Assembly: GCA_016285645.1 (NCBI GenBank)
Contig: JAEERC010000040.1
Coordinates: 1 to 46,484 of the forward strand
Length of the DNA: 46,484 bases
Reading direction: 5' to 3'
From: Clostridiaceae bacterium
Lineage (GTDB): Bacteria; Bacillota; Clostridia; Oscillospirales; Acutalibacteraceae
Under the pieces are notes generated by a model that was not told where the DNA came from, did not search any database, and was given only the letters and a program-made list of their open reading frames with translations. Below are positions 2 through 42,630 of this stretch, one piece after another. The position numbers and the translations under genes are program-made. Every line of letters begins with the position of its first letter. Position 1 is the first letter of the stretch.

Positions 2-2680
2 GATGTAAACGCGGAAAATGTCCGCGGGCTTACCACGGCGCAGATGACGGGCACAGCCGCCTGCGAAAATATGATTGGTTTCTTCACCCTTTCGGGCGGT
101 GAATACACGAGCGACGCCTGGTATGTTACCGACTCTTATCCGCTTCTCAAGGTGTTCGCTTCAGGCTCCGGTGATGATGAAATTCCCGCCGAAGCTGTGC
201 AGATAGGAACTTATGAAGAACTCAAAGCATTCGCAAGCCGTGTAAACGGCGGTGAAGAAGAACTCAATGCCGTGCTCACGGCGGATATTACCGCGGATGA
301 TGAAAACTGGACTCCGATAAGTAATTATTCCGGCATATTTGACGGTCAGGGGCACAAGGTAACCGGACTTTCCACACCGCAGGAATACGGAAACTTTGCC
401 GGATTGTTCGACTCTGTTTATGAGGAAGGCACAATCAGAAATGTCGGCATTGAAGGCGGTTCCATACATGGAGATATGTATGTAGGCGGCATCGCGGGAT
501 TTAACGAGGGAACCATAAAGAACTGCTATAACACCGGCAGTGTTTCGGGCAGCGGTATGTATGTCGGCGGTATCGCGGGAATTAATTTCGGAACCATAAA
601 GAACTGCTACAACACCGGCAGTGTTTCGGGCGGCAATATGTATGTCGGCGGCATTGCGGGCTTATCACAAGGTGATTTAATCAACTGTTACAACACCGGC
701 AGTGTATACGGCAGTGATGATTATGTCGGCGGTATTGTGGGACTTTATGCTAATTATGATGCAACTCACGAAATGAAGAACTGCTATTTTGACACAGATA
801 AGGTGACCGGAGTAAACGCCGTGGGTATTGATGTAAACGCGGAAAATGTCCGCGGGCTTACCACGGCGCAGATGACGGGAATAGCCGCCTGTGAAAATAT
901 GACCGGCTTTTTTACCCTTTCGGGCGGAGCATATACGAGCGATGACTGGTATGTTGCGGATTCTTATCCGCTTCTCAAGGCGTTCAGACCCGCCTCGCAG
1001 CCCACGGGGGATATTCCTCAGCTCAGAATAAATGAAGAAACGAATTATTGGGAAGTTTCATACGACAACGGTTCAACCTGGACTTCGCTCGGCGTTAAGG
1101 CAACGGGTGAAAACGGCCAGAACGGCTCCGACGGCGAAAACGGTATCACTCCTCAGCTCAGAATAAATGAAGAAACGAATTATTGGGAAGTTTCATACGA
1201 TAACGGCGCAACCTGGGCTTCGCTCGGCGTTAAAGCGACGGGTGAAAACGGTCAGAACGGCGCGGACGGTCAGGACGGACAGGATGGACAAAACGGCGCA
1301 GACGGTATCACTCCTCAGCTCAGAATCAATGAAGAAACCAACTACTGGGAAGTTTCATACGACAACGGCGCAACCTGGGCTTCGCTCGGCGTAAAAGCGA
1401 CGGGTGAAAACGGACAGAACGGTGCCGACGGTCAGGATGGTCAAGACGGACAAGACGGACAGAACGGTGCCGACGGTATCACCCCTCAGCTCAGAATAAA
1501 TGAAGAAACGAATTATTGGGAAGTTTCATACGACAACGGCTCAACCTGGGCTTCGCTCGGAGTAAAAGCGACGGGTGAAAACGGACAGAACGGCGCGGAC
1601 GGTCAGGATGGTCAAGACGGACAGGACGGACAGGACGGTGCCGACGGTATCACTCCTCAGCTCAGAATCAATGAAGAAACGAATTATTGGGAAGTATCAT
1701 ACGACAACGGCGCGACATGGGCGTCGCTCGGTGTAAAAGCGACGGGTGAAAACGGACAGAACGGCGCGGACGGTCAGGACGGACAAGACGGTCAGGACGG
1801 ACAGGACGGTGTCGGAATCGCAAGTGTTGAAATAGATGAAAACGGCCACCTCATCGTTACGCTTACAAATAACAGAGTGTTTGACCTCGGCAAAGTCACC
1901 GGTGAAAACGGACAGAACGGCGCCGACGGCCAAAACGGACAGGATGGACAGAACGGTCAGAACGGCGAAAACGGCGCGGACGGCAAAACACCCTCACTGC
2001 GCATAAATCCCGACACACTTGAATGGGAAGTTTCCTACGACGACGGTGCGAACTGGATCTCACTCGGTATAACAGCGGCAGGCGCGGACGGTCAGAACGG
2101 TGCCGACGGCAAAGACGGCGTTGACGGTCAGGACGGTAAAGACGGACAAGACGGTAAAGACGGTGTTGACGGTCAGGATGGCAAAGACGGTCAGGATGGT
2201 AAAGACGGTGTCGACGGTCAGGACGGCAAGGACGCCCCGACAATAACCGGAATGTATTATAACGAAGACGGCGAGCTCGTTGTTCAGATGTCCGACGGCA
2301 CGGAAATAAACGCCGGCAAGCCCGCGGCAAACACTGAAAGCGAAGATGAAAAGCCCGTTGTTACAATAGCCGGCTATCAGGCGGTAAGAAGCGCGGACTA
2401 CGGCACAACGATCACCTTCCACGCCTCGGCGGACTTCATCCCCGACGGATATGAGATACACTGGTATATAAACGGCGAGGATATGGGCACGGGCGAGGAT
2501 TATACGGTTGAGAACGCTAAAGCCGATTTCACCGTGAGCGCACGCCTTATGAAGGACGGCTCAACAATCTCCGAATCAAAATCCGAAAAAGTCGATGTGA
2601 ATACAAGCTTCTTCGGCAGATTTATCGCCTTCTTCAAAAAGCTCTTCAACGCGGCGGCGTTCATCATAGATCAGAAATAA
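2..2680 (+). CDS. GLUG / collagen-like repeat surface protein, 5' end outside the window
   Basis: The reading frame is already open at base 2, so the start lies upstream; 892 residues are visible. In order: the end of one GLUG module; a cap of the type YEELKAFASRVNGG followed by WTPI and FDGQGH; GLUG repeats (GGIAG..GTIKNCYNTGSVSG, about 440-790); a second copy of the module end; then six modules with the core INEETNYWEVSYDNG separated by Gly-x-x collagen-like runs (GQNGADGQDGQDG). A second collagen-like stretch lies at about 2080-2235. An Ig-like domain follows, and the protein ends with a Phe-rich amphipathic tail, SFFGRFIAFFKKLF. GLUG and collagen-like modules are typical of adhesins and cell-surface proteins. 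The same cap, GLUG repeats and tail recur in the 38812 gene, so the missing N-terminus may carry a signal peptide and dockerin as that protein does. No catalytic domain is seen. Surface role likely; ligand unknown. Confidence 0.85.
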   Translation, partial: DVNAENVRGLTTAQMTGTAACENMIGFFTLSGGEYTSDAWYVTDSYPLLKVFASGSGDDEIPAEAVQIGTYEELKAFASRVNGGEEELNAVLTADITADDENWTPISNYSGIFDGQGHKVTGLSTPQEYGNFAGLFDSVYEEGTIRNVGIEGGSIHGDMYVGGIAGFNEGTIKNCYNTGSVSGSGMYVGGIAGINFGTIKNCYNTGSVSGGNMYVGGIAGLSQGDLINCYNTGSVYGSDDYVGGIVGLYANYDATHEMKNCYFDTDKVTGVNAVGIDVNAENVRGLTTAQMTGIAACENMTGFFTLSGGAYTSDDWYVADSYPLLKAFRPASQPTGDIPQLRINEETNYWEVSYDNGSTWTSLGVKATGENGQNGSDGENGITPQLRINEETNYWEVSYDNGATWASLGVKATGENGQNGADGQDGQDGQNGADGITPQLRINEETNYWEVSYDNGATWASLGVKATGENGQNGADGQDGQDGQDGQNGADGITPQLRINEETNYWEVSYDNGSTWASLGVKATGENGQNGADGQDGQDGQDGQDGADGITPQLRINEETNYWEVSYDNGATWASLGVKATGENGQNGADGQDGQDGQDGQDGVGIASVEIDENGHLIVTLTNNRVFDLGKVTGENGQNGADGQNGQDGQNGQNGENGADGKTPSLRINPDTLEWEVSYDDGANWISLGITAAGADGQNGADGKDGVDGQDGKDGQDGKDGVDGQDGKDGQDGKDGVDGQDGKDAPTITGMYYNEDGELVVQMSDGTEINAGKPAANTESEDEKPVVTIAGYQAVRSADYGTTITFHASADFIPDGYEIHWYINGEDMGTGEDYTVENAKADFTVSARLMKDGSTISESKSEKVDVNTSFFGRFIAFFKKLFNAAAFIIDQK
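830..990 (+). repeat. Duplicated GLUG-module end, second copy of bases 2-165
   Basis: Bases 830-878 repeat bases 2-50 exactly (GATGTAAACGCGG...), and similarity continues for about another 110 bases with scattered substitutions. This is an intragenic duplication of the closing segment of a GLUG module. It shows that at least one more GLUG module lies upstream of the window. Confidence 0.8.
1018..1810 (+). repeat. Tandem near-identical coding repeats (collagen-like module)
   Basis: Five almost identical DNA copies of a module beginning CTCAGCTCAGAAT start near 1018, 1153, 1315, 1495 and 1655. A sixth, diverged copy starts near 1988. Spacing varies because the intervening GGACAGGACGG-type collagen triplets differ in number. 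All length differences seen are multiples of three, so the frame is kept. Confidence 0.85.
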
Positions 2681-2748
2681 TATCCGCCGTATAATAGCGG
2701 CGCAACATATTTTTACGGTATCGGTTCTTTAACAAAGGAGATAGAAAA

Positions 2749-4584
2749 ATGAAAGCTCTGAAAAAAGCAATCGCAATTATTCTCTCGGTTACAATGGTTA
2801 CGGTCACTTCGGTCGGCGCCTTCGCCGCGGACGGCAAGGAGGGCTACGGAGTGCTCGAACACGCCGTTGACAGTGTTTTCGGCGTTGTTCAGGACGGACT
2901 GTTCGCGATTCTCACCGCGATCAACATCCGTTTCGATCTGAAAAACGCGAAGGATTACAAGGTGGGGGAAGGTGAATACTTTTATCCCGGAACCGACGGC
3001 AAGGTAAGCGGCACGGGCTGGAAAGCGGGCTTTGCCGACAACAGCGTCATACCCGAAAAATGGCGCTGTGACGCAGAGGGCAACCCCGACCCCGAGGGCT
3101 GGTGCCTCGACAAAATGCACTGCGGCGGCGGATATCAGGCGGAAATAGATAAAATTTATTCGGGTCAGAATGTAAATGTTCTGGTCCTTTCAAACGGCAG
3201 CGACTCAAACGGCAACGGCAAGGAAGACATTATTATTATGATAAGTGTTGACGGCGTTGGCATAACGAGCGTGACCTGCCGCGATATAAGAAAAGGCGTG
3301 GAGGAAAAACTCAGCCGATACGGTATAACCCACGGCGACATTCTTTCCTGCACGGTGAGCGCCACCCACTGCCACGCGGGGCTTGATATTCAGGGAATGT
3401 ACTGGAAAAGGATTCTCAGCGTTCTCGCGATGAATCTCTTCAAGCGCTTTATTCCCGGACAGTATATGCTCACACTCGAAGAGGATATGCACGACACCCT
3501 CGTTGATAAGGCGTCCGACGCCGTTGACAGGGCGTTCGCGGGTATGGAAAACGGCAGTCTTTCGTTCTTCACCACAGATGAAGCCCGGGGCGTGAGGGAT
3601 AAATTCCACAGCGGCGCCAAAACCCAGAATAAGTTTTCCTCATTCATTTTTGAATCCGAAAGCGGCAAAAAGACCATAGTTTCAAATATCGGCGCCCATC
3701 CCGTTTCCGCCAACGCGCAGAGCACGCATATGACCGACTGCGACTATCCCTATTATATGAAACTCGCTATGAAAGACGCGGGCTACGACTTTATGTTCAT
3801 ACAGGGCTCCCAGGCGGGCGTTTCCACGGCGGACGCCGAAATCGGCAGGGATGCCGAGGAATGGGCGGCCTCAAAAGCGCTCACAAGGAACGAATGGGTT
3901 GAGAGATACGGCGAAGAGGTTACGGCGGAACTCTATGAGGGCTGCGAACCCGGCTTCGGCGATATGTATAAAAAGGGCTACGCCCTCGCGCATTTCGTAA
4001 TCGACGCGGCAAACGCAAAGACGGCGGTTGAACCCGTTGTGAATATCAAAACAACCGAAATACTCCTCGACTGCGACTTCGGCCTTATGGAGGTCGGCGC
4101 GGCTACGGGAGTGCTCGGCTTCAACGGCGTGCGCTCCTCCTCGGCGAAAAGCGGCTACGGCATTATGGTTGAGCTCGGCTGCATCGAACTCGGCGAGGAT
4201 GTCGCTTTCATAACCGTTCCCGGCGAACTCGCGCCCGCCTGCGTTTACGGCACAAAAGAGGGCTACGACGAATCCACGCTGTGGACGGGACCTCAGTCCT
4301 GGAGCGGCAAGGACTGGGAGTACAGAACCCTTGAGGATATGGTAAAAGAGGCGTCCGGCGATGAGAACAAGCAGGTTCTTGTTATGGGCCTTACCAACGA
4401 CGCCATAGGATATAACCTCCCCGACACAATCACAACAAAAGGCATACTCACTCCGCTCCTCATCTATAACGGCGACGGCGGCAACGAGGTGAGCAACTCA
4501 ATGCTTATGACCGTTTCGTGCCACAGCGCCTCCGATATAGTAAAAGGCTTCGGCGAGCTTCTCGGCGTACAGGCGAAAAAATAA
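2749..4584 (+). CDS. Secreted neutral/alkaline ceramidase-like hydrolase
   Basis: 611 residues. The start is set by AAAGGAG 8 bases upstream. A signal peptide with AFAA cleavage covers about residues 1-26, followed by a hydrophobic stretch (about 35-62). The rest resembles the N-terminal domain of neutral (non-lysosomal) ceramidases: SATHCHAGLDIQGM with H207 and H209 matching the zinc-binding THTHSGP region, a second conserved histidine in GAHPVSA (H317), and a late VPGEL...GLTNDAIGY block. That family cleaves the amide bond of ceramide outside the cell. The C-terminal Ig-like domain of classic ceramidases is absent. The usual GDVSPN nucleophile motif is not clearly present; QGSQAGVS occupies the area. 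The substrate is therefore uncertain. It is first in a same-strand run with other lipid- or amide-type hydrolases. Confidence 0.7.
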   Translation: MKALKKAIAIILSVTMVTVTSVGAFAADGKEGYGVLEHAVDSVFGVVQDGLFAILTAINIRFDLKNAKDYKVGEGEYFYPGTDGKVSGTGWKAGFADNSVIPEKWRCDAEGNPDPEGWCLDKMHCGGGYQAEIDKIYSGQNVNVLVLSNGSDSNGNGKEDIIIMISVDGVGITSVTCRDIRKGVEEKLSRYGITHGDILSCTVSATHCHAGLDIQGMYWKRILSVLAMNLFKRFIPGQYMLTLEEDMHDTLVDKASDAVDRAFAGMENGSLSFFTTDEARGVRDKFHSGAKTQNKFSSFIFESESGKKTIVSNIGAHPVSANAQSTHMTDCDYPYYMKLAMKDAGYDFMFIQGSQAGVSTADAEIGRDAEEWAASKALTRNEWVERYGEEVTAELYEGCEPGFGDMYKKGYALAHFVIDAANAKTAVEPVVNIKTTEILLDCDFGLMEVGAATGVLGFNGVRSSSAKSGYGIMVELGCIELGEDVAFITVPGELAPACVYGTKEGYDESTLWTGPQSWSGKDWEYRTLEDMVKEASGDENKQVLVMGLTNDAIGYNLPDTITTKGILTPLLIYNGDGGNEVSNSMLMTVSCHSASDIVKGFGELLGVQAKK

Positions 4585-4632
4585 ACCAAGCGTTACAAAA
4601 TCTTTCGCAGGCGCAGGAGCGCAGGGGGAAAA

Positions 4633-5619
4633 ATGAAAAAAGTCAGATTCGGAATTGTTGGCACGGGTACCATAGCCCACCGTTTCGCCAACGCGATAAA
4701 GAATACGCGGGGCGCCGAGCTCGCGGCCGTGGCGTCAAGAACGCGTGAGGGCGCGGAGAGCTTCGCACGGGAGTTCGGTATTCCCGCTTGCTTTGAGGGA
4801 TATGAAAATATGGCGCAGTCGGATTGCATTGACGCCGCCTACATAGCCGTTCCGCACTCGGGGCACATAACCTGCTCAATGCTTATGATGAACGCGGGCA
4901 AGCACGTGCTCTGCGAAAAGCCGATGGCGGTAAACGCGCGTGAGGCAAGGCAGATGTTTGACTGCGCTGAAAAGAACAATGTGCTTCTTACGGAAGCAAT
5001 GTGGGCGCGGCTTGTGCCCGGCACGCTTAAAATGCTCGAAATCGTCCGCGGAGGAGTCCTCGGCGACATACTCGGCGTGGAGGGAAAATTCTGCTACACA
5101 ATGGACGCCGATGAAATGGACCATCACGTGTTCAGACCGGAGCACGGCGGCGGCTCGCTTCTCGATGTGGGCTGCTACGGGCTGAATTTCGCAAGCTGGT
5201 ATCTCGGTGATGAGATTGAGAGCATCAGCGCGCAGGCGGATTTCTACAACGGCACGGACTGCCACACCTGCGTTCTTCTTAAATACAAAAGCGGAGCGAT
5301 AGCCGATATTTCGAGCGCCACTCTGCTTAAAAAACCGAATGAGGGTTATATTTACGGTACAAAGGGTTATGCCCGCCTGCCGAGGTTCTATGCCCCGCAG
5401 GAGATTATACTAAACACCGAACAGTCGGGCGAGAGCAGAATATCCGTCCCTTACGCCGGCAACGGCTTTGAGGAACAGATTGAGCATTTTTGTGCCTGCG
5501 TTTCGCAGGGGCTTCGCGAGAGCCCCGTAATCACTCACGCCCACACGCTTAAAATGATTGCCCTGTCCGATGAAATCAGAAAGATCATTTCACTTGAATA
5601 TCCGCAGGACCGCGGTTGA
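4633..5619 (+). CDS. Gfo/Idh/MocA-family NAD(P)-dependent oxidoreductase
   Basis: 328 residues, cytoplasmic, no signal peptide. The start is chosen after an AGGGGG site 6 bases upstream. The N-terminal Rossmann fold shows GIVGTGTIA (residues 7-15), and the family signature CEKP (residues 94-97) contains the Lys thought to act in catalysis. The C-terminal half is the alpha/beta substrate domain with GGGSLLDVGCYG. The pattern is closest to dihydrodiol dehydrogenase-like and sugar or inositol dehydrogenase members, which oxidise a hydroxyl with NAD(P)+. The substrate cannot be read from the sequence. It lies 48 bases after the ceramidase-like gene and 58 bases before the amide hydrolase gene, probably in one transcript. 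Presence between secreted hydrolases suggests it handles an imported product (inference). Confidence 0.85.
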   Translation: MKKVRFGIVGTGTIAHRFANAIKNTRGAELAAVASRTREGAESFAREFGIPACFEGYENMAQSDCIDAAYIAVPHSGHITCSMLMMNAGKHVLCEKPMAVNAREARQMFDCAEKNNVLLTEAMWARLVPGTLKMLEIVRGGVLGDILGVEGKFCYTMDADEMDHHVFRPEHGGGSLLDVGCYGLNFASWYLGDEIESISAQADFYNGTDCHTCVLLKYKSGAIADISSATLLKKPNEGYIYGTKGYARLPRFYAPQEIILNTEQSGESRISVPYAGNGFEEQIEHFCACVSQGLRESPVITHAHTLKMIALSDEIRKIISLEYPQDRG

Positions 5620-8292: not shown

Positions 8293-9828
8293 ATGAAAAA
8301 AGTTCTGTCGGTTGTTTTATGTTTTGCGCTTATCTTATGCGCGGCGTCGCCCGCCCTTGCGGATGGCGGATGTGATTGCGGTTTTTCGCCGGTTATATAT
8401 GTCGGTCCTCTCGGCTGTTCGTCAATAGTGCGTGACGCGGGCACCGAAAACGAGCAGCAGCTCTGGAAAATCGACACGAAATTCCTGCTTTCCAATCTCG
8501 GCGGCGTTCTGCCGGATTTAACAAAAGCGCTCCTGACACGAGATGCCGATTTGCTCGGCGACGCGCTTGTGCGGTTTGTCAACGCCTGTTTCGGCGATCT
8601 CGCGCTCAACAGCGAGGGGAATTCGAAGGCGAATGTCACCACGCCCGAACTCAATGTTCCCGCCGGTGACAGGCACGGCCCCGACAGCGACTATTATTTT
8701 GACTACGATTTCCGGCTTGACCCCTTTGAGCACGCGGACAGACTGCACGAATTCATTGAGCAGGTCAAGGCGCTTACCGGTCATAACAGCGTAAAACTCA
8801 AATGCTCGAGTATGGGCGGAGTAGTGCTTTCGGCTTATCTTGAAAAATACGGGCACGACGGAATTGATGTCATCATATGCCGCTGCTGTCCCCTCAAGGG
8901 AACCGCGGTTGCGGGCGAGGCGTTCTGCGGCAAAATCGAACTCAATTCAACCTCGCTCACACGCTACGGCGAGGACGCCATTCCGTTCCTCGAGACGGGT
9001 TTCGCCGACGATTTCATTGAGGGCACGCTCTACGCCCTTCTCGACACACTCAAAGCCGCGGGAGTTGTTGACGGGCTTTGCGCTCTCGGCGACAAACTGA
9101 TAAAAGACGCGGGCGATAAAGTTTACCGCGAGGCGCTCATCCCCGTTTTCGGCACTCTGCCGGGTATATGGTCGTTTGTTCCCGAGGAATATTTTGACGA
9201 TGCCGTTGAATTTATGAATCTTCCCTCCGAGGGCGGACTTCACGATAAAGTATTCGCCTACAGAAACGCCATGGCTGATATTGAGGAAAATCTTGCAGCG
9301 GCAAGGGACGACGGCGTGAAAATATGCGTTATCTGCGGCTACAATGTTCAGAGAACGCCGCTTGTAACTCTGTGGAAATCCACATCCGACGGAACGGTGG
9401 ATACGAAATACGCCTCTCTCGGCGCCACCTGCGCCGATGTTAAGGAACCGCTCGACGACGATTATATAAACGCGATGCGGAGCAGGGATTATCTTTCGCC
9501 CGACAATATGATTGACGCCTCCACCTGCGCCCTGCCGGAGAACACCTGGTTTGTGCGCGACTGGCTTCACTGCAACGGCAACGCGGGCATCGATGAACTT
9601 TTCAATCTTGTTATGACAAGCGATGAAGTAAATATTTCATCATTTGAAAAATTCCCGCAGTTCCTCGAGGCGGACGATGACGCCGACACGGTATATCCCG
9701 TTACCGGCGCGCCTGACGAGGCGGCAAGGTTCAGAAACAGCCCGACCTTCCTGAATTTTATAAGATTCCTGTTCTCGGTTCTGAAAAGAATAACGGAAAA
9801 CAGCGTTTTTGACATATTGTTTAAATAA
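8293..9828 (+). CDS. Secreted LCAT/PGAP1-like lipase or acyltransferase
   Basis: 511 residues. AAGGAAGGAG lies upstream of the ATG. The signal peptide ends at about residue 23 (SPALA-DG). The alpha/beta-hydrolase features are an early strand with VIYVGPLG and a nucleophile elbow KCSSMGG with Ser173. A central block typical of lecithin:cholesterol acyltransferase-like lipases (DYDFRLDPFEHADRLHEFI) precedes the elbow. Candidate acid and base lie in the last third (D/H near RDWLHCNG). The elbow has Cys171 where the family usually has Gly, so the GxSxG consensus is broken at its first position. The C-terminus ends in a hydrophobic amphipathic helix (FLNFIRFLFSVLKRI) like the tails of other secreted proteins here. 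Probable action on phospholipid or another ester outside the cell. Confidence 0.65.
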   Translation: MKKVLSVVLCFALILCAASPALADGGCDCGFSPVIYVGPLGCSSIVRDAGTENEQQLWKIDTKFLLSNLGGVLPDLTKALLTRDADLLGDALVRFVNACFGDLALNSEGNSKANVTTPELNVPAGDRHGPDSDYYFDYDFRLDPFEHADRLHEFIEQVKALTGHNSVKLKCSSMGGVVLSAYLEKYGHDGIDVIICRCCPLKGTAVAGEAFCGKIELNSTSLTRYGEDAIPFLETGFADDFIEGTLYALLDTLKAAGVVDGLCALGDKLIKDAGDKVYREALIPVFGTLPGIWSFVPEEYFDDAVEFMNLPSEGGLHDKVFAYRNAMADIEENLAAARDDGVKICVICGYNVQRTPLVTLWKSTSDGTVDTKYASLGATCADVKEPLDDDYINAMRSRDYLSPDNMIDASTCALPENTWFVRDWLHCNGNAGIDELFNLVMTSDEVNISSFEKFPQFLEADDDADTVYPVTGAPDEAARFRNSPTFLNFIRFLFSVLKRITENSVFDILFK

Positions 9829-24277: not shown

Positions 24278-25000
24278 ATGAAAAAGATTCTGAAAATTTT
24301 ACCGTTCGCGGTAGTGATAATACTGATTTCAGTGTTTTTTATCTATACCGGCGATTATTATCACGCGGACGGGCGGGCGCAAAAAGCGCTTGTTTCGGGA
24401 GGCGGGGTAACCGTTGAGAAGGCGGATTACGGATTTTTCTTTGACGGGCCCGGTGATGACTGCGCGCTGATTTTTTACCCCGGCGGCAAGGTTGAGGAGA
24501 CCGCCTACGCTCCGTTGCTGAACAGACTTGCTCAAAACGGTGTGGACGCCTTCCTTGTCAAAATGCCGTTTCACCTCGCCTTTTTCGGCGTGAACAGGGC
24601 GGGGGAAATAGCGCGGCGCGGCGATTACGACCGGCTCTTTATCGCGGGACATTCGCTCGGAGGCGTTGCCTGTGCCTCGTTTGCCGCAAAGAATCCGGAT
24701 CTGGTTGACGGTGTTATTCTGCTCGCCGCCTATCCGGCGGAAAAACTCGCGGACAGCACCGGCGCCGTGCTCGTTTACGGCTCGGAAGACGGAGTGCTCA
24801 ATATGGAAAAATATGAAAAGAGCAAGTCCCTTCTGCCCGCTTCCTTCCGCGAGTATGTTATTGAAGGCGGCAACCACGCGTTTTTCGGTTCATACGGCAA
24901 TCAGGACGGCGACGGCAGGGCGAAAATCACCCCGGCGCAACAGACTGAAAAAACCGTTGAAATAATAGTTAATTCGATGAAAGGCAAGGAGGATAAATGA
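24278..25000 (+). CDS. Membrane-anchored or exported alpha/beta hydrolase
   Basis: 240 residues, with an N-terminal hydrophobic helix (about 8-25). Fold markers are LIFYPGGKVEETAY (oxyanion region), nucleophile elbow GHSLGG (Ser126), acid candidate in VYGSEDGVLN and base in GGNHAFFG. It resembles the compact esterases that Pfam places in the alpha/beta hydrolase (BAAT/dienelactone-like) group and is likely displayed on the outer face of the membrane. Its TGA overlaps the ATG of the next gene (ATGA), so the two are translationally coupled. Confidence 0.82.
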   Translation: MKKILKILPFAVVIILISVFFIYTGDYYHADGRAQKALVSGGGVTVEKADYGFFFDGPGDDCALIFYPGGKVEETAYAPLLNRLAQNGVDAFLVKMPFHLAFFGVNRAGEIARRGDYDRLFIAGHSLGGVACASFAAKNPDLVDGVILLAAYPAEKLADSTGAVLVYGSEDGVLNMEKYEKSKSLLPASFREYVIEGGNHAFFGSYGNQDGDGRAKITPAQQTEKTVEIIVNSMKGKEDK

Positions 25001-26859
25001 AAAAGAGAGTTATTAAAATCATCGGTCTGATTCTTGCTTTTACCCTGATTTGCGGTTCCGCCGCGCCCGCTTTCGCGCTCGGCGCTCAGGTGACGGCTCA
25101 GGCGGATGCCGCGACGGACGGCGGGAACATTTTCGCCGGCATTATTTCTTTTTTCAGGGAATTGTTTGACAAAATCATTTCATTTTTCAAAAACATCTTT
25201 GACTTTTCAAAAAAAGAGGTTATACCGAACACGATGAACAAAAACGCCATTCATATGCTCAAATCCGTCACCGACACAATATGCGACAGCTTTATAATCA
25301 CAACGGAAGACGGTAAGGTTATTGTCATAGACGGCGGTCACAGAACGGAAACGGAATATTTTCTTAAATATCTCAAAGCGGTCACAGGGCAGGAAAAACC
25401 GCATATTGACGCGTGGTTTCTCTCCCACGCCCACGATGACCACTGCGAGGTTTTCCTTGAGGTTGCCGAGAATCACGCCGACGAGGTCAGCTTTGATAAA
25501 GTTTACGCGAATTTCCCCGAGGCGTCCTTCTATGACGGATATGACGAGTGGGGAGTATATATCATAAACGAGTATAACCGCCTTCTTCCCGCCTTCGCGG
25601 ATAAAGCGGCGGAGCTTCACGAGGGCGACAATTTCAATGTCGGGGCGGCGGAATTCACCGTTTTTTACACCTTCAACCCCGAGTGGAAAAATGTCAACGA
25701 GGGCTCGACGATTATGCGTATGGATCTCGGCGGGCGCAGTGTTATGTTCACGGGCGATGCCGGAGTGAACGCGGGCAACTATGTTGTTGAACAATACGGC
25801 GAAAGCGGCGCGCTCGACTGCGAGATATGCAAAATGGCGCACCACGGGCAGGACGGCGTTGACAGAAATTTCTATGAGGCGGTCTCGCCCGAGGTCTGCC
25901 TGTGGCCCACCCCCTCGTGGGTGTGGGAAAACACAAACGGCAACTTGAAAACCCTCGAGGTGCGCGCCTGGATTGACGACCTCGGCGTAAAGAAAAACTA
26001 TGTTGCCAAGGACGGCTCGAAGGTGTTTTATGTTTTCAGCCCGAAAATCGTCACCACAACCGATGTTTTCGAGGCGGGCTACCCCGCCGACAGGGCGGCT
26101 CAGCGCCTTGCCGCTCTCGGTTACGAGGGTATAGATATGGGCTTTGACTACTGGGTTTACGGCCCCGAGTCGCCGTTTTTGCAGGATGATTATCTCAACT
26201 GGGCGGCGTCGCTCAGGGAATGCGCCGAAACGGCGGGAACGCGGTACACCCACGCGCACGCCCCGGGCGAGGCAAACTCCGGCGATGTTATTGAGCGCTT
26301 AATAAGAGCCGCCGCGGTCATGGGCGCCGAATACCTTGTAATCCACCCCGTATGGAAATACGAAAACGGCAAAACAATAGAGAAAAAATCCGATTTCATT
26401 TCGATAAACGCCGAAGCGATAAGACAGTGGCTGCCGCTTGCCGAGGAGTGCGGAGTTATCCTTCTCTCCGAAAACATCCTTTGGGGAGCGTCCAAGGATC
26501 CGCGCATTATCGCCGAACTTGTAAAAGAGGTAAATTCCGATTGGTTCGGCTGGTGCTTCGATGTGGGTCACGCGCACTGCTGCGGCTATGAGCCGGAAAT
26601 CCTCGGAAAATGCGGCGTTGTTCCGCTTTCACTCCACATTCAGGACAACGACGGCACGGGTGACGGTCACCTCATACCCGGCGACGGCACAATCGACTGG
26701 GATGAGTTCATCCTCGTTTTAAAGGAAATCGGCTACACCGGCGATTGCGTTATGGAGGCGCACCACCAGTCCCTTGTCGCTCCCGATGAGGAGAGGGACG
26801 AAATACTCGCCCGTCTGCTCGATGAATCGGAAAAACTCCGCTTTGAAATGAAAAACTGA
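24997..26859 (+). CDS. Secreted MBL hydrolase fused to a xylose-isomerase-like (AP endonuclease 2) TIM barrel
   Basis: 620 residues, overlapping the previous gene by 4 bases. The signal peptide ends near AFALG (residue 28). A Phe-rich amphipathic segment (IISFFRELFDKIISFFKNIF, about residues 48-67) follows. The MBL domain (about 75-345) has LSHAHDDH (H144, H146, D148, H149), MFTGDAG and MAHHG. From about 349 a sugar isomerase/epimerase-type TIM barrel begins without a linker. Its metal-site motifs are EYLVIHP, LLSENILWG, WCFDVGHAHCCG, PLSLHIQDNDG and CVMEAHHQ. Both halves keep their metal ligands. Such barrels are usually cytoplasmic, so a secreted version is unexpected. Function unknown. Confidence 0.8.
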   Translation: MKKRVIKIIGLILAFTLICGSAAPAFALGAQVTAQADAATDGGNIFAGIISFFRELFDKIISFFKNIFDFSKKEVIPNTMNKNAIHMLKSVTDTICDSFIITTEDGKVIVIDGGHRTETEYFLKYLKAVTGQEKPHIDAWFLSHAHDDHCEVFLEVAENHADEVSFDKVYANFPEASFYDGYDEWGVYIINEYNRLLPAFADKAAELHEGDNFNVGAAEFTVFYTFNPEWKNVNEGSTIMRMDLGGRSVMFTGDAGVNAGNYVVEQYGESGALDCEICKMAHHGQDGVDRNFYEAVSPEVCLWPTPSWVWENTNGNLKTLEVRAWIDDLGVKKNYVAKDGSKVFYVFSPKIVTTTDVFEAGYPADRAAQRLAALGYEGIDMGFDYWVYGPESPFLQDDYLNWAASLRECAETAGTRYTHAHAPGEANSGDVIERLIRAAAVMGAEYLVIHPVWKYENGKTIEKKSDFISINAEAIRQWLPLAEECGVILLSENILWGASKDPRIIAELVKEVNSDWFGWCFDVGHAHCCGYEPEILGKCGVVPLSLHIQDNDGTGDGHLIPGDGTIDWDEFILVLKEIGYTGDCVMEAHHQSLVAPDEERDEILARLLDESEKLRFEMKN

Positions 26860-28381: not shown

Positions 28382-29446
28382 ATGAAAAAATCGTTGTGTC
28401 TGTTCCTGAGTCTTATTATGATTCTCGGCGTCTGTGTGACCGCCTTTGCCGCGGATCCGAACGAGATTCCCACCCTCAAAGAAAAATTCCTTGACGGCGA
28501 AGGTCCCGAAACCGACGGAATGACAATAGACTATGTCTATTACGCCCCCGAAAATCCGCAGGGCGCGAAACTGCCCCTCGTTATCTTCTTCCACGGAGCG
28601 GGTCAGGGCGCGGCTCCACGCGCGCAGATTGAGGAGAACAATTTCCCGCTCTGGGCGGGCGATGAAATCCAGAGCCGTTTCACGGGCGGCGGAGCTTATC
28701 TGCTTGTGCCGAGAAGCCACGAGGAAAACGGCGAGAACTGGAGCGACAACCATGTTGCCGCGGTGAAGGCGGCAATTGATGATTTCATTGAGAAAAACGC
28801 CGATTCAATCGACATAACGAGAATATATGTCGGCGGCTTCTCAATGGGCGGTAAGATGACTCTCAAAATGGCGTCGAGCTATCCCGGATATTTCGCCGCC
28901 GCCTTCCCGCTCTGCCCCGCCTATGAGCCGACCTCGGAGCAGATTGAGGCGCTCTCCGATTTGCCGCTGTGGTTCATAGTCAGCCGCTTTGACATAATCG
29001 GCGGCTACTACACCTTTTCAAAGGATATCTGGGAGGAATTGTGCGAAAAAACCAATGTGCCTTCCGACTGCAGACTCACCCTTTTCGGAACTGTGAAATA
29101 CCCGGACGGCAAAAAAACTCCGAGCAACCACCATGTATGGTTCGCGCTGGCAAACGATATGTTTGCCTATGACGGAGGTAAATATCCGGGCGCGGTCACA
29201 ACGGACGCCCAAGGCAACGAAATTGAACTTGTAAGCCCCGACGGCGTTGTTTCGTGGCTCTGCTCATACACCTCTGATTATGACGGAGAGCCGCTTGAGG
29301 CAAACGGCACCCTTGAGAACAACCCCGACAGCATCTATAACGGAGCGGACAATGTTCTGAGAGCCGTGTTCCCGCTTGTAGCCGACGCGATAAAAACCTT
29401 CTTCACCGGCATTTTCGAGAGCATCGCCGGGCTGATAAAGAGATAA
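28382..29446 (+). CDS. Secreted feruloyl-esterase/PHB-depolymerase-like esterase (LpqC type)
   Basis: 354 residues. The signal peptide ends at about residue 24 (VTAFAA-D). Fold blocks are LVIFFHGAGQ (oxyanion hole, 67-75), YVGGFSMGG with nucleophile Ser154, an acid candidate in VSRFDIIGG and the base in SNHHVWF. These match the PHB-depolymerase-like esterase group that includes feruloyl and acetyl xylan esterases. It probably removes ester-linked groups from polysaccharides outside the cell. The last 28 residues form an amphipathic hydrophobic helix (ADAIKTFFTGIFESIAGLI), resembling the tails of other secreted proteins here. Transcribed alone from the promoter at 28312. Confidence 0.8.
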   Translation: MKKSLCLFLSLIMILGVCVTAFAADPNEIPTLKEKFLDGEGPETDGMTIDYVYYAPENPQGAKLPLVIFFHGAGQGAAPRAQIEENNFPLWAGDEIQSRFTGGGAYLLVPRSHEENGENWSDNHVAAVKAAIDDFIEKNADSIDITRIYVGGFSMGGKMTLKMASSYPGYFAAAFPLCPAYEPTSEQIEALSDLPLWFIVSRFDIIGGYYTFSKDIWEELCEKTNVPSDCRLTLFGTVKYPDGKKTPSNHHVWFALANDMFAYDGGKYPGAVTTDAQGNEIELVSPDGVVSWLCSYTSDYDGEPLEANGTLENNPDSIYNGADNVLRAVFPLVADAIKTFFTGIFESIAGLIKR

Positions 29447-30264: not shown

Positions 30265-31959
30265 ATGAGGAATTCACTGTTTAAAAAAGCGCTTTCGGTC
30301 TTTCTCTGCCTGCTTATGCTCGCGGGCACGGCTCAGCTTGTGTTCACCGCCTTTGCCGATGACGGCAAGGTGCTGTTCACCGTCGGCACGGATATTCACA
30401 TTGACAACACGCAGACAAAGATTGAGGAATACTACCCCGAAAACGAGTTGTATTTTCAGGCGTCCGGGTCCGGGAACATCTATGACCAGGCGGCGGAGCT
30501 TACAAAAAGTTTTCTTTACAAAAGCGTTGACGAGGGCGCGGAGTTTATACTGATAGCCGGCGACCTCACAAGAAGCGGAAACGCCGCCCAGCACACCTTT
30601 GTCGCCTCGCTCCTTTCGGATTTCGAGGAGGAAACGGGCGTTCAGGTCTATGTTATTCCCGGCAACCACGATTACTACAACTCCACCCGTGAGGAGTTCA
30701 GGAACTGCTACAGTGCGCTCGGCTACGACACGGCGCTCGCCGAGGATGAAAAAACCGCTTCATACACCGCGGATGTGGGCGGGAACTACCGCCTTATAGC
30801 CGTTGACTCAAACGACCCCGGCGAGGACGGCGACGGCATAGATGACGCCCTGCTCGGCTGGATTGAGACCCAGGTTAAGAAGGCGCACGAGGACGGCAGG
30901 GAAATAATATATATGATGCACCACTCCCTGCTTGAGCACCTCTGCCTCGGGCATCTGCTTATGAAGGATTTTATTGTGAGAGACAGCGAGGCACTCGCCG
31001 AAAAATTCAGCGAATGGGGCATAAAATATGTCTTTTCCGGCCACGAGCACGGCAACGACATTTCGAGTTTCACGGGCAAAAACGGCGAAGTTGTATATGA
31101 TGTTCTTACAACCTCACTCTCGTCGTATCCGCTCGAATACAGGTCTGTTACAATGTCGCCCGAAGGCGCGGATATAAAGATGAGAAAGATTGACGAGTGC
31201 AATGTTGACGCGCTTGTTGACGGCTACACCGACGCGCAGAAGGCGCTGCTTGAAAGCGATTACGAGGAGTTTGCCTACGGGCTTTTCAGATATTCCGTTG
31301 AGAGAAAGATTCTCAGACTCATCGCGCCTGAATATATCAAAGGCGTGCTGAATGTTACCGACGGACCCCTTGCGACAACCGTCGAACTTCTTTTCACCGC
31401 CATATCTGAAGCCCTCGAAATGCCGCTTTACGACAGCGGGGAGGGCGTGAGCATTGAAAAACTCGCTTCTTCCAAGGGTGTCAGAATTCCCGCTTCGGAT
31501 TACGGCTCGCTTATAGAACTCGCGAGCGCTATGGTGGCAATGCACTATTACGGCGACGAAAATATGCCCTCGGGCGAAAACCCCGAATGCGAAATCCTCG
31601 TCAAGGGTCTCAACACGGGTCTGCAGTATGTTCTTACAAGAACGGGCAGAAGCGGTCTCAACCTCCTGCTCGATGTTATCGGAACGCAGGTGAACACCGA
31701 GGAACTCAGCCCTCTTTTCACAGCCGTTGCCCTCGGCAGGGAGGATTCCTATAAAATCGCGGGCAGGGTGCTCTACCCGCTGCTCGACAAATTCGCGGTG
31801 GATTCGGGTCTTCCCGACAGGGATGTCTTCCTTCCCGCCGATACAGCCGAAGCGGCAGAAGGGGACAACGCGCCCGTGTCGTTCATCGGAAGAATAATTG
31901 AGTTTTTCAAAAAGATTTTTATCCGCGTTTCCGCTCTGTTCGGATTCGCGGCACAGTGA
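30265..31959 (+). CDS. Secreted calcineurin-like metallophosphoesterase with hydrophobic tail
   Basis: 564 residues, start after CGGAGG. The signal peptide ends near residue 31 (TAFA-DD). Metal motifs are all present: TDIHID (D43, H45), AGDLTRSG (D100), IPGNHDYY (N134, H135, D136), MMHHS and SGHEHG. A helical region of about 230 residues without a recognised domain follows. The C-terminus ends with SFIGRIIEFFKKIF (about 539-552), which aligns residue for residue with the tail of the first gene in the window. Extracellular phosphoesterase; substrate unknown. First gene of an operon with the GH127-like enzyme (25 bases downstream). Confidence 0.85.
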   Translation: MRNSLFKKALSVFLCLLMLAGTAQLVFTAFADDGKVLFTVGTDIHIDNTQTKIEEYYPENELYFQASGSGNIYDQAAELTKSFLYKSVDEGAEFILIAGDLTRSGNAAQHTFVASLLSDFEEETGVQVYVIPGNHDYYNSTREEFRNCYSALGYDTALAEDEKTASYTADVGGNYRLIAVDSNDPGEDGDGIDDALLGWIETQVKKAHEDGREIIYMMHHSLLEHLCLGHLLMKDFIVRDSEALAEKFSEWGIKYVFSGHEHGNDISSFTGKNGEVVYDVLTTSLSSYPLEYRSVTMSPEGADIKMRKIDECNVDALVDGYTDAQKALLESDYEEFAYGLFRYSVERKILRLIAPEYIKGVLNVTDGPLATTVELLFTAISEALEMPLYDSGEGVSIEKLASSKGVRIPASDYGSLIELASAMVAMHYYGDENMPSGENPECEILVKGLNTGLQYVLTRTGRSGLNLLLDVIGTQVNTEELSPLFTAVALGREDSYKIAGRVLYPLLDKFAVDSGLPDRDVFLPADTAEAAEGDNAPVSFIGRIIEFFKKIFIRVSALFGFAAQ

Positions 31960-33709: not shown

Positions 33710-33723
33710 AGCGGGGTGAAAAA

Positions 33724-37053: not shown

Positions 37054-37088
37054 CCCCGGTAAAACGCACGGTTTTCCCTCAGCGAGGA

Positions 37089-37449: not shown

Positions 37450-37469
37450 AATAAAGGAAGATAAGTAAA

Positions 37470-37916: not shown

Positions 37917-38011
37917 ACTTGTATTTATATCTGAGCACAATTTTTATGACAAATTCTCAGTGATGTGCGCTTATGACAGTATGAATAAGCCAAGTAACAA
38001 GCAGTATTATT

Positions 38012-38032
38012 ATCACTCTCTAGTGATATAAT
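38012..38032 (+). promoter_or_regulatory. Palindrome overlapping a -10 element
   Basis: ATCACT-CTCT-AGTGAT (38012-38027) ends in TATAAT (38027-38032), 41 bases before the ATG of the following gene. It suggests an operator over the core promoter. The -35 is weak (GTATTA). Confidence 0.45.
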
Positions 38033-38073
38033 ATGTATTATAGACAATAAACATTAATTATGGGGTGAAATTT

Positions 38074-38754
38074 ATGGTTTGTTCCAAATGCGGAATAGAT
38101 GCAGGCACAAGTAAGTTCTGTCCAAACTGTGGGACACCGATCGAAGCAGTTGCTACTAATTATAAAGAACCGGAGAATGACAAACCGGTTTGCGAAAGCG
38201 CAGATCAAACGGTCACACACTATAGGCAATCGGTGCCAAACGGAAAGACGAGTAAGGTTAAGATCGGTTGCCTGATTGCGTTGATCCCGATTGCATTCCT
38301 GTTTGGTTTGTTGATTAGACTCGGAACTGAATCAAACAGTACCATCCCTGAGAAGAATGCGACTGGTGCAGCCCAAGACCGGGCGAGCGCTAGAGATATG
38401 GTCCTTTATGATTCAGATAATATTCTTGTGGAATTCAGGGGACTTGAAAAACATTTTGATGATAGTTATATTATTAATATTTATGTCGAGAATAATCAAG
38501 ATGAGGATTTTTATTTTATCTTGTCGGATGTTCGAGCTAATGGATGTGTTGTTGATCTTTCAAATTGGGACTGTGTCTTGATTCCTTCTCACAGCAAATA
38601 TCTTGCTTATCCCAACAATGATTATATTCTGGATAATGATGATTTGCAGCCATACGGAATTGACAAAATTGACAGTATGGATTTTAAAATCAATTTTTAC
38701 AAATCTTGGATGAAAGACAAGTTTATAGAAGAAGAGATTCATCTAGAATTGTGA
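38074..38754 (+). CDS. Zinc-ribbon, single-membrane-helix protein with extracytoplasmic domain
   Basis: 226 residues from the ATG after GGGGTG; a GTG 9 bases upstream is possible. The N-terminal zinc ribbon has C3, C6, C16 and C19 (CSKCG...CPNCG). A membrane helix (IALIPIAFLFGLLI) lies at about residues 66-86. The outer domain of about 130 residues is beta-rich (ILVEFRGLEKHFDDSYIINIYVENN), like DUF4352/DUF5067-type immunoglobulin-like domains. Function unknown. Codon use is AT-rich, matching the previous gene. Confidence 0.75.
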   Translation: MVCSKCGIDAGTSKFCPNCGTPIEAVATNYKEPENDKPVCESADQTVTHYRQSVPNGKTSKVKIGCLIALIPIAFLFGLLIRLGTESNSTIPEKNATGAAQDRASARDMVLYDSDNILVEFRGLEKHFDDSYIINIYVENNQDEDFYFILSDVRANGCVVDLSNWDCVLIPSHSKYLAYPNNDYILDNDDLQPYGIDKIDSMDFKINFYKSWMKDKFIEEEIHLEL

Positions 38755-38811
38755 ACTTATGGTAAAATATACGCGTAGGTATTTCATAAAAACTCTATTG
38801 GAGGAAGAATT

Positions 38812-41800
38812 ATGAAAATAACAAAGAAAGCTCTGTCAGTTCTGCTCTCGCTGATGCTCGTGCTCGGCACGGTTAGTGTCGGGGGAATCAGCGTGTCGGC
38901 GGAGGTTCCTGCCGTAACCCTTTGGGGTGACGCCAACTGCGACAATCAGGTGGATATGGCAGACATCGTGTTGATTATGCAAAGTCTGGCAAATCCGAAC
39001 AGGTACGGGCGTTACGGCACCGATTATTCCCATATAACTTTACAGGGCGAAGTTAATGCCGATGTTGACAACAGTATCAATGGAGTTACTGCCGGTGACA
39101 CAACAAAAATTCAGGAGTATCTGCTCGGCAAGATAAGTTCATTGAACCCGAACAGGGGCACCGGCGCATCTTCTTCCGCGACTGTTTCTGACAAGAACGC
39201 GGATATTAACGCAGATGTTTCTTTCTCGTTCATGGACGAAGACGGCAGCAATAAAGTCAATCTGGCATCCGGTGAGAACAGAACAATCGGAGTTGATGTC
39301 AATATTGATGCCGGCAGCAATCCGATTTCCGCTCTTGATGTTCAGTTCACCGTTACAAACGGAATAAAAATCAGTGAGATTTATAGAAGTGTGAAAGCGT
39401 TCCGTGGCGTGACGGTCAGCAGAAATATTGAAAATCTGAGGGCAAACTATACGACTCTTGACGGTGACTCACCCATGACCGCGGAGAGCGGCAAATCGGC
39501 TTTTATGATTGATGTCGAGGTGCCGGCAGGCACACCGGACGGCGTTTATTATGTTGATTTTTCATCTTGCAAGATTTTTAAAGATAACACCTCATTTAAT
39601 TACACGGTGTCGGCTGACCCCCTTAAAATAGTTGTCGGTAACGAGACTATGGAAATTTCAACTTACAGCGACCTCAGGGATTTCGCCTCACGCGTAAACA
39701 GCGGTGAAACGGGCCTCAACGCAATACTGATGAATGATATTGAATGCAAAAACGATGACGGAACAGCCGCAAAAGACTGGACTCCCATCGGCAATTTGAG
39801 CAACAATTATATCGGCACATTTGACGGCGACGGCCATATAATAACCGGGCTTACTTACAACAACCCAAATCAGGATTACGCCGGTCTTTTCGGCTGTGTC
39901 GGCGAAGGCGGTAAAGTCCGGAATGTCGGCCTTGAAGGCGGAAGCATAACAGGACAAAAATATGTCGGCGGCGTCATCGGACTTAATTACGGCACCGTCA
40001 CAAACTGCTATAACACGGGCGGTGTTTCCGGCAAAGATTATGTCGGCGGCGTGGTCGGATATAATTATAACAGCTCGGTTTCAAGCTGCTACAACACGGG
40101 CAGTGTTACGGCAACAGCAAACTTTGCTTATGCCGGCGGCGTGGTCGGAGAGAATTGTGCAAACAGTTCGGTTGAAAACTGCTATAACACGGGCAGTGTT
40201 ACCGCCACAGAACAATATGCTTATGCCGGCGGCGTGGTCGGATATAATTATATGAGCAGCACGATTTCAAACTGCTATAACACGGGCAGTGTTTCCGGCG
40301 ATTATGATGTCGGCGGTGTGGTCGGATATAATGTTAATAACAGTTCGGTTGAAAACTGCTATAACACGGGCAGTGTTACGGCAACAGGTAACAATGCTTA
40401 TGCCGGCGGCGTGGCCGGAGAGAATTTTCTTGAAAACAGTTCGGTTAAAAACTGCTGTTATGACTCAGACAGAGCCCCCGGTATTCCCGCAATAGGGTAC
40501 GAAGACATTGCAACACACACCAATGTCGAAGGTCTCACCACCGCGCAGATGACCGGCGCAAACGCGCTTGACAATATGGTCTTTGAATACGGAGCCGGCG
40601 AAGAAAACCCCTGGCTGACCAGGGCAAACGATGACATCAATTCTTTTTATCCCCACCTTAAGGGCTTTGCCTACGACAGCGAGCCGACTGCGGAAAACTG
40701 GCCGCCCAAAATTGTGAATGTTATTGAATATCCCCTCTGGGTCGGCGGCAATCAGGTAACGAGCGACAATATGGATGATGTGCTTAAAGACGGAACTGTC
40801 AGATTTGAGGCGGTTGACGGCAAGCATATTCTCACTCTCGAAAACGCGGATATTACAGAGTCATATCGTTATGAGGAATTTGATAACGCTTATACAACCG
40901 CCAATATTGTGACAGCTTATCCGGTCAATGATACAGAGCTCACAATTGTTCTTATCGGGGAAAACAAACTGAGCGCTGCGGAATACGGCATCCGCGACTC
41001 AAATTCCCGCCTTCTGACGATTACGGGAGACGGCTCTCTTGATGTAACAGCGGATATAATGGCGATTCAGGGTATTGACCTGTTCATTGACGGTGCCGAT
41101 ATAACGGCGAAAGGAGCAGGAGGAGCGAACGGCGACGGAAGCGGTATTATCACAGATAATTTAACAATCCGCAACAGCGCGGTATCCGCAACGGGTTCAG
41201 AATTCGGAAACGGAATTTGCGGCACATCAATAAAAATAACTGACAGCGTAATTACCGCCGAGTCCGAAATGAATATCGCTGTAGCTTCTTCGACTTTATC
41301 AGTCAGCGGCAATAGCACCGTTATTGCCGAATGCGCTTCAGATGAGGACAGCGCGATTATTGCGGGAGAATTTGTATTTGATGACAGGAACGATATTACA
41401 GAACCCTGGAATTACAGACTTGAAAATAACGGCGATTATAAATTGGTTTACAATGCCGACGATAACACCGCGGCAAAGAAAGTAGTTATAGGCAAAGGAT
41501 ATGCCGTGACATTCCTTGACGGCGACGGCGAAACGGTTTTATACAAAACCAAGGTGCTCGAGGGAGCGAATCCCGAATACAAGGGCGCAGCGCCCACCCG
41601 CACAGACCCCTCGGGCGGATACACCTACGCCTTCTCGGGCTGGAAAGACGGCAACAACAACGAATATGCTCCCGGCGCGGCTTTCCCCGCGGCTGAAAGC
41701 GACATAACATACACGGCGCAGTTTACCGAAACGCCGGTTGACTACACCGTAACCTTCTTCGTTGACGGCAAGCAGTATTCGCAGTCCACCGTTCCCTTCG

Positions 41801-42630
41801 GCGCGCCGGTTTCAAGCCCGCGCACACCGCAGAAGGAATATTATGATTTCACCGGCTGGGATGCGGAAATCCCCGATACAATGCCGGCACAGAATCTCGA
41901 ATTCAACGCGGTATTCAAAGCAATCGAATACACCGCGACATTTACAGCGGACGACGAAACGGTTAAGGAAGTTAAATTCACCGTTGAGGACGACAGCATA
42001 GATGAACCCGCCGTTCCCGAAAAAGAGGGCTATGAAGGAAAATGGACCGCATACACTCTCGCCGCGGCCGATATAACAATTAAGGCGGAATACACAGCCA
42101 TAGAATATACAGCAACCTTCGTTGACAAAAACGGAGAAACGGTTGAGGAAGTCAAATTCACCGTTGAAACAGAGAGCATTGAAGAACCCGCCGTTCCCGA
42201 AAAGACGAATTACACGGGAGAGTGGGAAGAATACACGCTCGGAGCAAATGACATAACGATTAAACCCGTTTACACTCTCGCGGGCGAAACGGTCGTAAAT
42301 ACCGACAGCGAGAGCGAAATCACAACGGACTACAAAGAATCAAAGAGATTTGTCTTTGAGCCCGAATTCGTTCCCGAGGGAGCAACCGCACACGTATTCT
42401 ATAACGGCGAAGACAGAGGCGAGGGCACTTCAATTGAAGTCAAAGAGCCCACCGATGACTACACCGTCGAGTGCAAGGTCCTCGATGCCGAAGGCAACGA
42501 AATCGCATCAAGCGGCGAAATCAAGGTCAAAGTCAAAAACAGCTTCTTTGACAGACTCAAATGGTTCTTCAATAACCTGCTCAGGATGGTAATTGAAGCG
42601 CTTATCGAAGGCTTCGGCTCAGTCTGCTGA
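38812..42630 (+). CDS. Large secreted protein: N-terminal dockerin, cohesin-like domain, GLUG repeats, InlB/Flg_new repeats
   Basis: 1272 residues, start after TTGGAGGA. Signal peptide to about residue 30. Residues 36-112 are a type I dockerin with two calcium loops (GDANCDNQVDMADIV and NADVDNSINGVTAGD). Residues about 120-280 form a cohesin-like beta-sandwich. A cap (YSDLRDFASRVNSG...WTPIG) leads to six or more GLUG repeats (about 340-560). A beta-helix-like carbohydrate-binding (DUF4353-like) region spans about 640-880. Four Flg_new/InlB-type repeats (YTVTFFVDGK, YTATFVDKNG) span about 900-1170. An Ig-like domain and a Phe-rich tail SFFDRLKWFFNNLL (about 1243-1256) close the protein. It is a paralogue of the first gene. 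An N-terminal dockerin is uncommon. Likely a surface scaffold or adhesin. Confidence 0.85.
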   Translation: MKITKKALSVLLSLMLVLGTVSVGGISVSAEVPAVTLWGDANCDNQVDMADIVLIMQSLANPNRYGRYGTDYSHITLQGEVNADVDNSINGVTAGDTTKIQEYLLGKISSLNPNRGTGASSSATVSDKNADINADVSFSFMDEDGSNKVNLASGENRTIGVDVNIDAGSNPISALDVQFTVTNGIKISEIYRSVKAFRGVTVSRNIENLRANYTTLDGDSPMTAESGKSAFMIDVEVPAGTPDGVYYVDFSSCKIFKDNTSFNYTVSADPLKIVVGNETMEISTYSDLRDFASRVNSGETGLNAILMNDIECKNDDGTAAKDWTPIGNLSNNYIGTFDGDGHIITGLTYNNPNQDYAGLFGCVGEGGKVRNVGLEGGSITGQKYVGGVIGLNYGTVTNCYNTGGVSGKDYVGGVVGYNYNSSVSSCYNTGSVTATANFAYAGGVVGENCANSSVENCYNTGSVTATEQYAYAGGVVGYNYMSSTISNCYNTGSVSGDYDVGGVVGYNVNNSSVENCYNTGSVTATGNNAYAGGVAGENFLENSSVKNCCYDSDRAPGIPAIGYEDIATHTNVEGLTTAQMTGANALDNMVFEYGAGEENPWLTRANDDINSFYPHLKGFAYDSEPTAENWPPKIVNVIEYPLWVGGNQVTSDNMDDVLKDGTVRFEAVDGKHILTLENADITESYRYEEFDNAYTTANIVTAYPVNDTELTIVLIGENKLSAAEYGIRDSNSRLLTITGDGSLDVTADIMAIQGIDLFIDGADITAKGAGGANGDGSGIITDNLTIRNSAVSATGSEFGNGICGTSIKITDSVITAESEMNIAVASSTLSVSGNSTVIAECASDEDSAIIAGEFVFDDRNDITEPWNYRLENNGDYKLVYNADDNTAAKKVVIGKGYAVTFLDGDGETVLYKTKVLEGANPEYKGAAPTRTDPSGGYTYAFSGWKDGNNNEYAPGAAFPAAESDITYTAQFTETPVDYTVTFFVDGKQYSQSTVPFGAPVSSPRTPQKEYYDFTGWDAEIPDTMPAQNLEFNAVFKAIEYTATFTADDETVKEVKFTVEDDSIDEPAVPEKEGYEGKWTAYTLAAADITIKAEYTAIEYTATFVDKNGETVEEVKFTVETESIEEPAVPEKTNYTGEWEEYTLGANDITIKPVYTLAGETVVNTDSESEITTDYKESKRFVFEPEFVPEGATAHVFYNGEDRGEGTSIEVKEPTDDYTVECKVLDAEGNEIASSGEIKVKVKNSFFDRLKWFFNNLLRMVIEALIEGFGSVC

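Follow-up and report, generated by a model that had tools for sequence, protein, structure and literature searches.

Terminal amphipathic helices on exported proteins of a clostridial genus, candidate in-plane anchors of the cytoplasmic membrane

Introduction

Within a stretch of 46,484 nucleotides from a Clostridiaceae bacterium of the family Acutalibacteraceae, analysed over its whole length and referred to here as the window, several exported proteins with different domains carry similar Phe-rich segments at one of their ends. Do these segments constitute a common element, how far does it extend beyond this locus, and what could it do for the proteins that bear it? The window makes up a single contig of a genome of 2.6 Mb (73 contigs), and the initial annotation had described four such segments as a module shared by unrelated secreted proteins, possibly a membrane-holding helix or a sorting tag. 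We find that the terminal amphipathic helix is real, recurrent and export-linked, and that it is wider than first reported.

Terminal helices in the window

A hydrophobic amphipathic helix is present in six window proteins, all encoded on the forward strand; in five it lies at the C-terminus, and in the sixth it follows the signal peptide directly. Export was called from heuristic signal peptides, with the 5'-truncated 2-2680 standing outside this test. The latter is a GLUG/collagen-like protein whose frame runs off the contig, which hides any signal peptide, and its Phe-rich helix lies at 2603..2677 (hydrophobicity H 0.76, moment 0.52), with a profile match 7 residues before the stop. The exported GLUG/Flg_new protein 38812-42630 ends in a Phe-rich, Cys-terminated helix (42538..42627) that is the best profile match in the window's genome, being itself a seed of that profile. 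The signal peptide of this protein is followed directly by dockerin-type-I-like repeats (38812-39300; a match to Pfam PF00404 at E 0.0011 that does not reach the curated cut-off). Among the enzymes, the exported metallophosphatase 30265-31959 has its C-terminal helix at 31873..31956, and two tails that had been noted as looser equal the rest in amphipathicity: that of the exported esterase 28382-29446 (29366..29443; H 0.72, moment 0.60) and that of 8293-9828 (9745..9825; H 0.74, moment 0.64), an exported alpha/beta-hydrolase-like protein with a weak fold assignment (Pfam E 0.04-0.09). The sixth helix, at 25126..25215 (18-mer H 0.82, moment 0.66), follows the signal peptide of 24997-26859, a metallo-beta-lactamase fold fused to a xylose-isomerase-like TIM barrel. 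Several genus relatives of this protein match only its first ~346 residues and have frames of about 346-367. A possible weaker post-signal-peptide helix in 2749-4584 (2848..2937; H 0.85, moment 0.33) is uncertain and falls below the rule given next.

A fixed rule on the C-terminal 33-mer (H 0.75-1.15, moment of at least 0.45; the strict rule below) was passed by 5 of 11 window C-termini and by 8 of 1122 overlapping interior 33-mers; proteins 2749, 6878, 12328, 20302 and 44355 of the window, likewise exported or presumed so, do not pass it at this end. The six helices are terminal and too little hydrophobic to span a membrane (H 0.72-0.82, moment 0.52-0.66), and a combination of LPXTG-like motif, spanning helix and basic end was absent from the tail sequences on inspection by eye, so the tails are indeed, as had been stated, neither LPxTG signals nor membrane-spanning helices. 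Curated NCBIfam CTERM models, run against seven proteins at E up to 1, gave no tail match; the sole match to such a model, TIGR04200 (PExPT-CTERM, E 0.009, below its cut-off), falls in the signal peptide of 8293 (residues 6-28). No Peptidase_S11 domain was matched at E up to 0.01 in the ten window proteins scanned.

The four segments sit where they had been placed, and the consensus proposed for them, S-F-[FI]-x-R-[FIL]-[IK]-x-F-F-[KN]-[KN]-[LI]-[FL], fits the three C-terminal ones; the segment of 24997 does not fit it, being a similar but longer helix. Searched strictly in all six frames of the window, the consensus occurs exactly three times (SFFGRFIAFFKKLF, SFIGRIIEFFKKIF and SFFDRLKWFFNNLL), with 10-15 residues left before the stop, and it was absent from 500 shuffles of the 11 exported or presumed exported window proteins.

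An Ig-like domain followed by a Phe helix

The Phe consensus describes mainly one homologous family, in which an Ig-like domain of ~80 residues is followed by the Phe helix at the end of many large surface proteins. Two of the four proteins first reported belong to it: the Ig-like domain preceding the tail of 2-2680 (2351..2602, forward strand, delimited by alignment) is paralogous to that of 38812 (42319..42537, forward strand), and the last ~120 residues of both proteins align at 27% identity, so that these ends are not unrelated. The description of the bearers as unrelated thus has to be dropped for the ends of this pair and is kept for the enzymes, which do share the helix without being related. 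An AlphaFold2 model of the end of 38812 shows a beta-sandwich (pLDDT about 85-92) and one C-terminal helix of 27 residues (residues 98-124 of the 125 modelled; mean pLDDT of the model 80.7), with helix pLDDT of about 87-91 in the first half, declining to 59 at the end. Foldseek places the Ig-plus-helix model among generic beta-sandwich folds, fibronectin-III-like modules being among the nearest solved ones, and a search of solved structures with the tail profile returned a single chance-level match, to an alpha-1,3-fucosyltransferase (E 1.7).

A first profile of seven tails (three from the window, four from relatives) gave 36 matches in the window's genome at E up to 10, and all 30 that were fetched, three of them the window seeds themselves, end 4-13 residues before a stop. 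Among the six unfetched matches is the 24997 helix (E 2.07), the single match known to lie elsewhere than at a C-terminus. Within this genome the core of the family is identical in six copies (NGFFDRLKAFFAELIEKI), and 10 of the 30 Phe tails end in Cys (..SVC, ..SIC, ..KAC or ..KIC; L033-L040, L043 and L048), the window example being 38812 (L033). Relatives of 38812 with a similar tail (L003, L004, L007, L008 and L010) belong to metagenome-assembled genomes that carry the label Ruminococcaceae or Clostridia bacterium; goat omasum is the source of two of the five. Two further genes, L057 and L062, have a near-identical PENPENPDNPGTDDEP linker and FFEKL(I/V)KFFTELF tail near the starts of contigs C12 and C40, and a third profile match, with a score equal to that of L062, lies on contig C51; repeats of this type may have broken the assembly.

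A larger profile of 19 tails (16 from the window's genome) matched, at E up to 0.1, 24 of 25 genomes of the genus with 1 to 41 matches each, the exception being a genome only 64% complete, and each of the 26 best genus matches fetched is followed by no more than 16 residues. Beyond the genus, one of the 18 listed genomes from other genera of the family has a match (E 0.0086), and matches in order genomes of other families are marginal (2 of 15, E 0.04-0.06). At E up to 0.01, 8 of 298 other genomes of the phylum and 4 of 244 other genomes of the order have one match each, where E-values lead one to expect ~3 and 2.4; most of the eight phylum matches contain internal stops or lie in frames of less than 65 residues, and the best match outside the genus (genome G537, E 3.7e-4) lies in a frame of 29 residues. 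In other genomes of the order and phylum, then, the larger profile finds weak, near-chance matches only. A local control on sampled stretches, with a profile built largely from tails of the window's genome, gave 8 matches of at least 10 bits in that genome (7 within 30 residues of a stop), 2 in the genus and none outside; the reversed profile gave none at this score in any group of the same stretches.

Looser helices on unrelated enzymes

The initial annotation had envisaged an HMM built from the four segments. The Phe profile performs well on the Ig-linked family but leaves most enzyme tails undetected, as the majority of these have only physical character in common; a single HMM thus falls short of the class, and a physical rule was applied alongside it. 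What emerges is a second layer, a looser hydrophobic, amphipathic and basic end-helix on unrelated enzymes, whose character is kept while its sequence drifts.

In the metallophosphatases (29 of 30 fetched genes readable), pairwise identity is 25-26% in the tails vs 61-68% in the catalytic part, and 21 of the 29 pass the strict rule. The moment is reached by fewer than 5% of own-composition shuffles in 12/12 and 9/13 tails, and for a combined score of H plus moment only 9/12 and 4/13 tails beat 95% of shuffles. Four genes (L174, L178, L179 and L193) have a helix-like tail that fails the rule, three of the genus (L180, L181 and L197) stop before the tail, L180 and L181 right at its expected start, and the sole outgroup (L198) lacks a tail. 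AlphaFold2 places the helix of 30265 at residues 536-563, with low confidence (pLDDT about 62), after a low-confidence linker (residues 529-539, pLDDT <50).

The cleanest contrast between the genus and other genera is given by the alkaline phosphatases, with 27 readable genes among the 30 fetched (L206, L208 and L211 could not be read). Both genus genes fetched have an end-helix, one passing the strict rule and the other, less hydrophobic, failing it, and none of the 25 readable genes of other genera passes. Nineteen of these 25 stop at most 15 residues from where the homology ends; six are longer, among them L200, whose end looks like a spanning helix, and L221, whose 48-residue extension is basic and partly hydrophobic and fails the rule.

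The helix after the signal peptide of 24997 is kept in 9/9 readable orthologues (L118 and eight of nine further stretches; L276 was not readable), with moments of 0.59-0.69, hydrophobicity of 0.38-0.82 and a drifting sequence. Since 24997 and its orthologues carry the helix in this place, its position is flexible, and the placement originally proposed, C-terminal or next to the signal peptide, agrees with these orthologues and with the 30 fetched profile matches near a stop.

Enrichment in exported proteins

Beyond single families, C-termini were compared in stretches sampled by place at arbitrary positions, some on contigs already known from tail, sortase or phosphatase matches: the window and 20 stretches from its genome, 40 from the genus, 37 from other genera of the family, 16 from the order and 4 from the phylum. 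After 78 frames open at a stretch edge were dropped, 1644 were kept. Signal peptides and amphipathicity were called by heuristic rules rather than trained predictors, and the signal-peptide class is diluted because the heuristic admits some membrane proteins and spurious frames.

In the window's genome and genus together, the strict rule is passed by 24/115 signal-peptide proteins vs 5/479 cytosolic ones (p 5e-14) and vs 3/77 signal-peptide proteins outside (p 5e-4), p-values that belong to the threshold pair giving the smallest of six tried. This strong enrichment in signal-peptide proteins over cytosolic ones supports the initial annotation on this point. By group, 14/38 signal-peptide proteins pass in the window's genome, 10/77 in the genus, 2/50 in other genera of the family, 1/26 in the order and 0/1 in the phylum; the cytosolic counts are 2/145 in the window's genome, 3/334 in the genus and 3/492 outside. 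Proteins with a heuristic lipobox never pass (0/22 in the window's genome and genus, 0/18 outside), and by the loosest rule 1/22 does. The window's genome alone differs from outside signal-peptide proteins with p 9e-6; without it, the signal-peptide proteins of the genus still exceed its cytosolic proteins (10/77 vs 3/334, p 6e-6) and those outside (vs 3/77, p 0.04). Looser rules separate the classes less well than the strict one: with thresholds of 0.50 for the moment and 0.45 for H, 38/479 cytosolic ends pass, and once the window's genome is set aside the genus shows no difference from outside (16/77 vs 10/77, p 0.14). Similar tails occur in three other genera of the family, in one sampled protein each (L234, L243 and L244, from genomes G686, G635 and G529), so the broad trait is enriched in the genus and not exclusive to it. 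The 24 passing tails, two of which (L029 and L256) look like spanning helices, are rich in Phe (15% vs 5%) and positively charged (net +1.9 vs -0.2) with few acidic residues, a composition that suits a helix at the membrane surface.

What the helices may do

We consider it probable that the helices are in-plane anchors on the outer face of the cytoplasmic membrane, comparable to the tail of PBP5 and used as a portable terminal element. The protein would be exported by Sec and its signal peptide presumably cut; a basic amphipathic helix of 15-30 residues, predicted to form at the C-terminus or, in 24997, directly after the cleavage site, would then lie in the plane of the outer leaflet, Phe, Ile and Leu buried and Lys and Arg towards the phosphates, and the enzyme or adhesin would remain on the cell with no need for lipid, sortase or spanning helix. 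In the models of 38812 and 30265 the helix is separate, following the Ig domain or the low-confidence linker. Omp85 is absent from 30/30 relatives, so no outer membrane is expected, and a diderm envelope was rejected. The genus also has sortases and lipoprotein-like proteins, and the helix would add to those routes rather than replace them.

The closest known case is Escherichia coli PBP5 (DacA), an exported enzyme whose C-terminal amphipathic helix, about 18 residues long, tethers it to the outer side of the inner membrane (PMC2909392); as described there, removal of the last 18 residues yields a soluble form and proper localisation is lost. The likeness would lie in the anchor and the difference in its use, which for PBP5 concerns one enzyme family; here the helix occurs throughout a genus on numerous exported proteins that are unrelated, and in some cases it follows the signal peptide. 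Descent from an ancestral PBP5-type anchor was considered and rejected: the sole Peptidase_S11 carboxypeptidase found in the window's genome (L270) ends in what resembles a spanning helix. Two to four S11 genes are present in several members of the genus.

Could the helix instead be a tag read by a dedicated machine for sorting, modification or surface transfer, like LPxTG, PEP-CTERM or MYXO-CTERM, with membrane contact merely transient? Dozens of copies in the window's genome, strictly terminal and in a restricted lineage, would suit such a tag, as would the tails ending in Cys, a possible modification site, and those known tags are likewise short C-terminal elements with dozens of copies per genome in restricted lineages (for MYXO-CTERM, PMC11980579). 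They are tripartite, however, with a motif, a spanning helix and a basic cluster served by a dedicated protease; here no motif is common to all, the enzyme tails having no invariant one, the window tails lack the spanning helix plus basic end, no enzyme is known, and in 24997 and its orthologues the helix is N-terminal. A partner gene was not identified with sortase as the only candidate profiled, and sortase was rejected as partner: it occurs in 37/40 relatives, with and without tails and outgroups included, and does not track them. We regard this explanation as rather unlikely. Docking or oligomerisation elements that join exported proteins to each other or to a scaffold also seem unlikely: oligomerisation helices can be amphipathic and a docking partner might require the identical Ig-plus-helix core seen in six copies, but the tails are Phe-rich and basic instead of Leu heptads, and those of the enzymes diverge too far for one partner surface.

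There might, alternatively, be nothing in common beyond one duplicated Ig-plus-helix domain, the other tails being ordinary C-terminal helices packed on their own domains. That two of the four original proteins share the Ig domain and that the contrast with outgroups weakens under lenient criteria would favour this; such ends are nonetheless rare in cytosolic proteins (5/479), alkaline phosphatases of other genera end without the helix, and the model of 30265 puts the helix after a low-confidence linker, all of which makes this account improbable. Basic, Phe-rich amphipathic helices also resemble membrane-active peptides, and one might imagine a role in disturbing membranes, e.g., in vesicle formation or attack on competitors, but their presence in many copies on ordinary exported hydrolases renders it extremely improbable.

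For the in-plane anchor, the mechanism as such is known, and its portable, genus-wide use is what apparently distinguishes this case. Monotopic in-plane anchors, of which 21 reported cases are compiled in PMC1564421, likewise have an amphipathic helix that runs parallel to the membrane; we found no mention there of a set on exported proteins that extends across a genus. The main text of a review of monoderm surface display (PMC5817068) does not contain the words 'amphipathic', 'amphiphilic' or 'monotopic', and in the open-licence literature, a corpus without most subscription journals and preprints, we found no portable-helix set across the exported proteins of one genus. We tentatively postulate, as a possibility well short of probable, a genus-wide display system of a monoderm that is neither lipid- nor sortase-based: in a large share of signal-peptidase-I-type exported hydrolases and large adhesin-like proteins, a terminal amphipathic helix that arose by convergence or was acquired several times, and that can occupy either the C-terminus or the mature N-terminus, would hold the secretome at the outer leaflet, and the Cys-ended subset may be further modified.

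Implications

Location predictors call signal-peptidase-I proteins that have no lipobox, LPXTG or spanning helix secreted into the medium. Should the helices act as anchors, much of the secretome predicted for this genus, some of whose named relatives are from ruminant guts, would be cell-bound. This, if true, would change how the products of these enzymes are shared with neighbours, and the helix would be a simple display tag.
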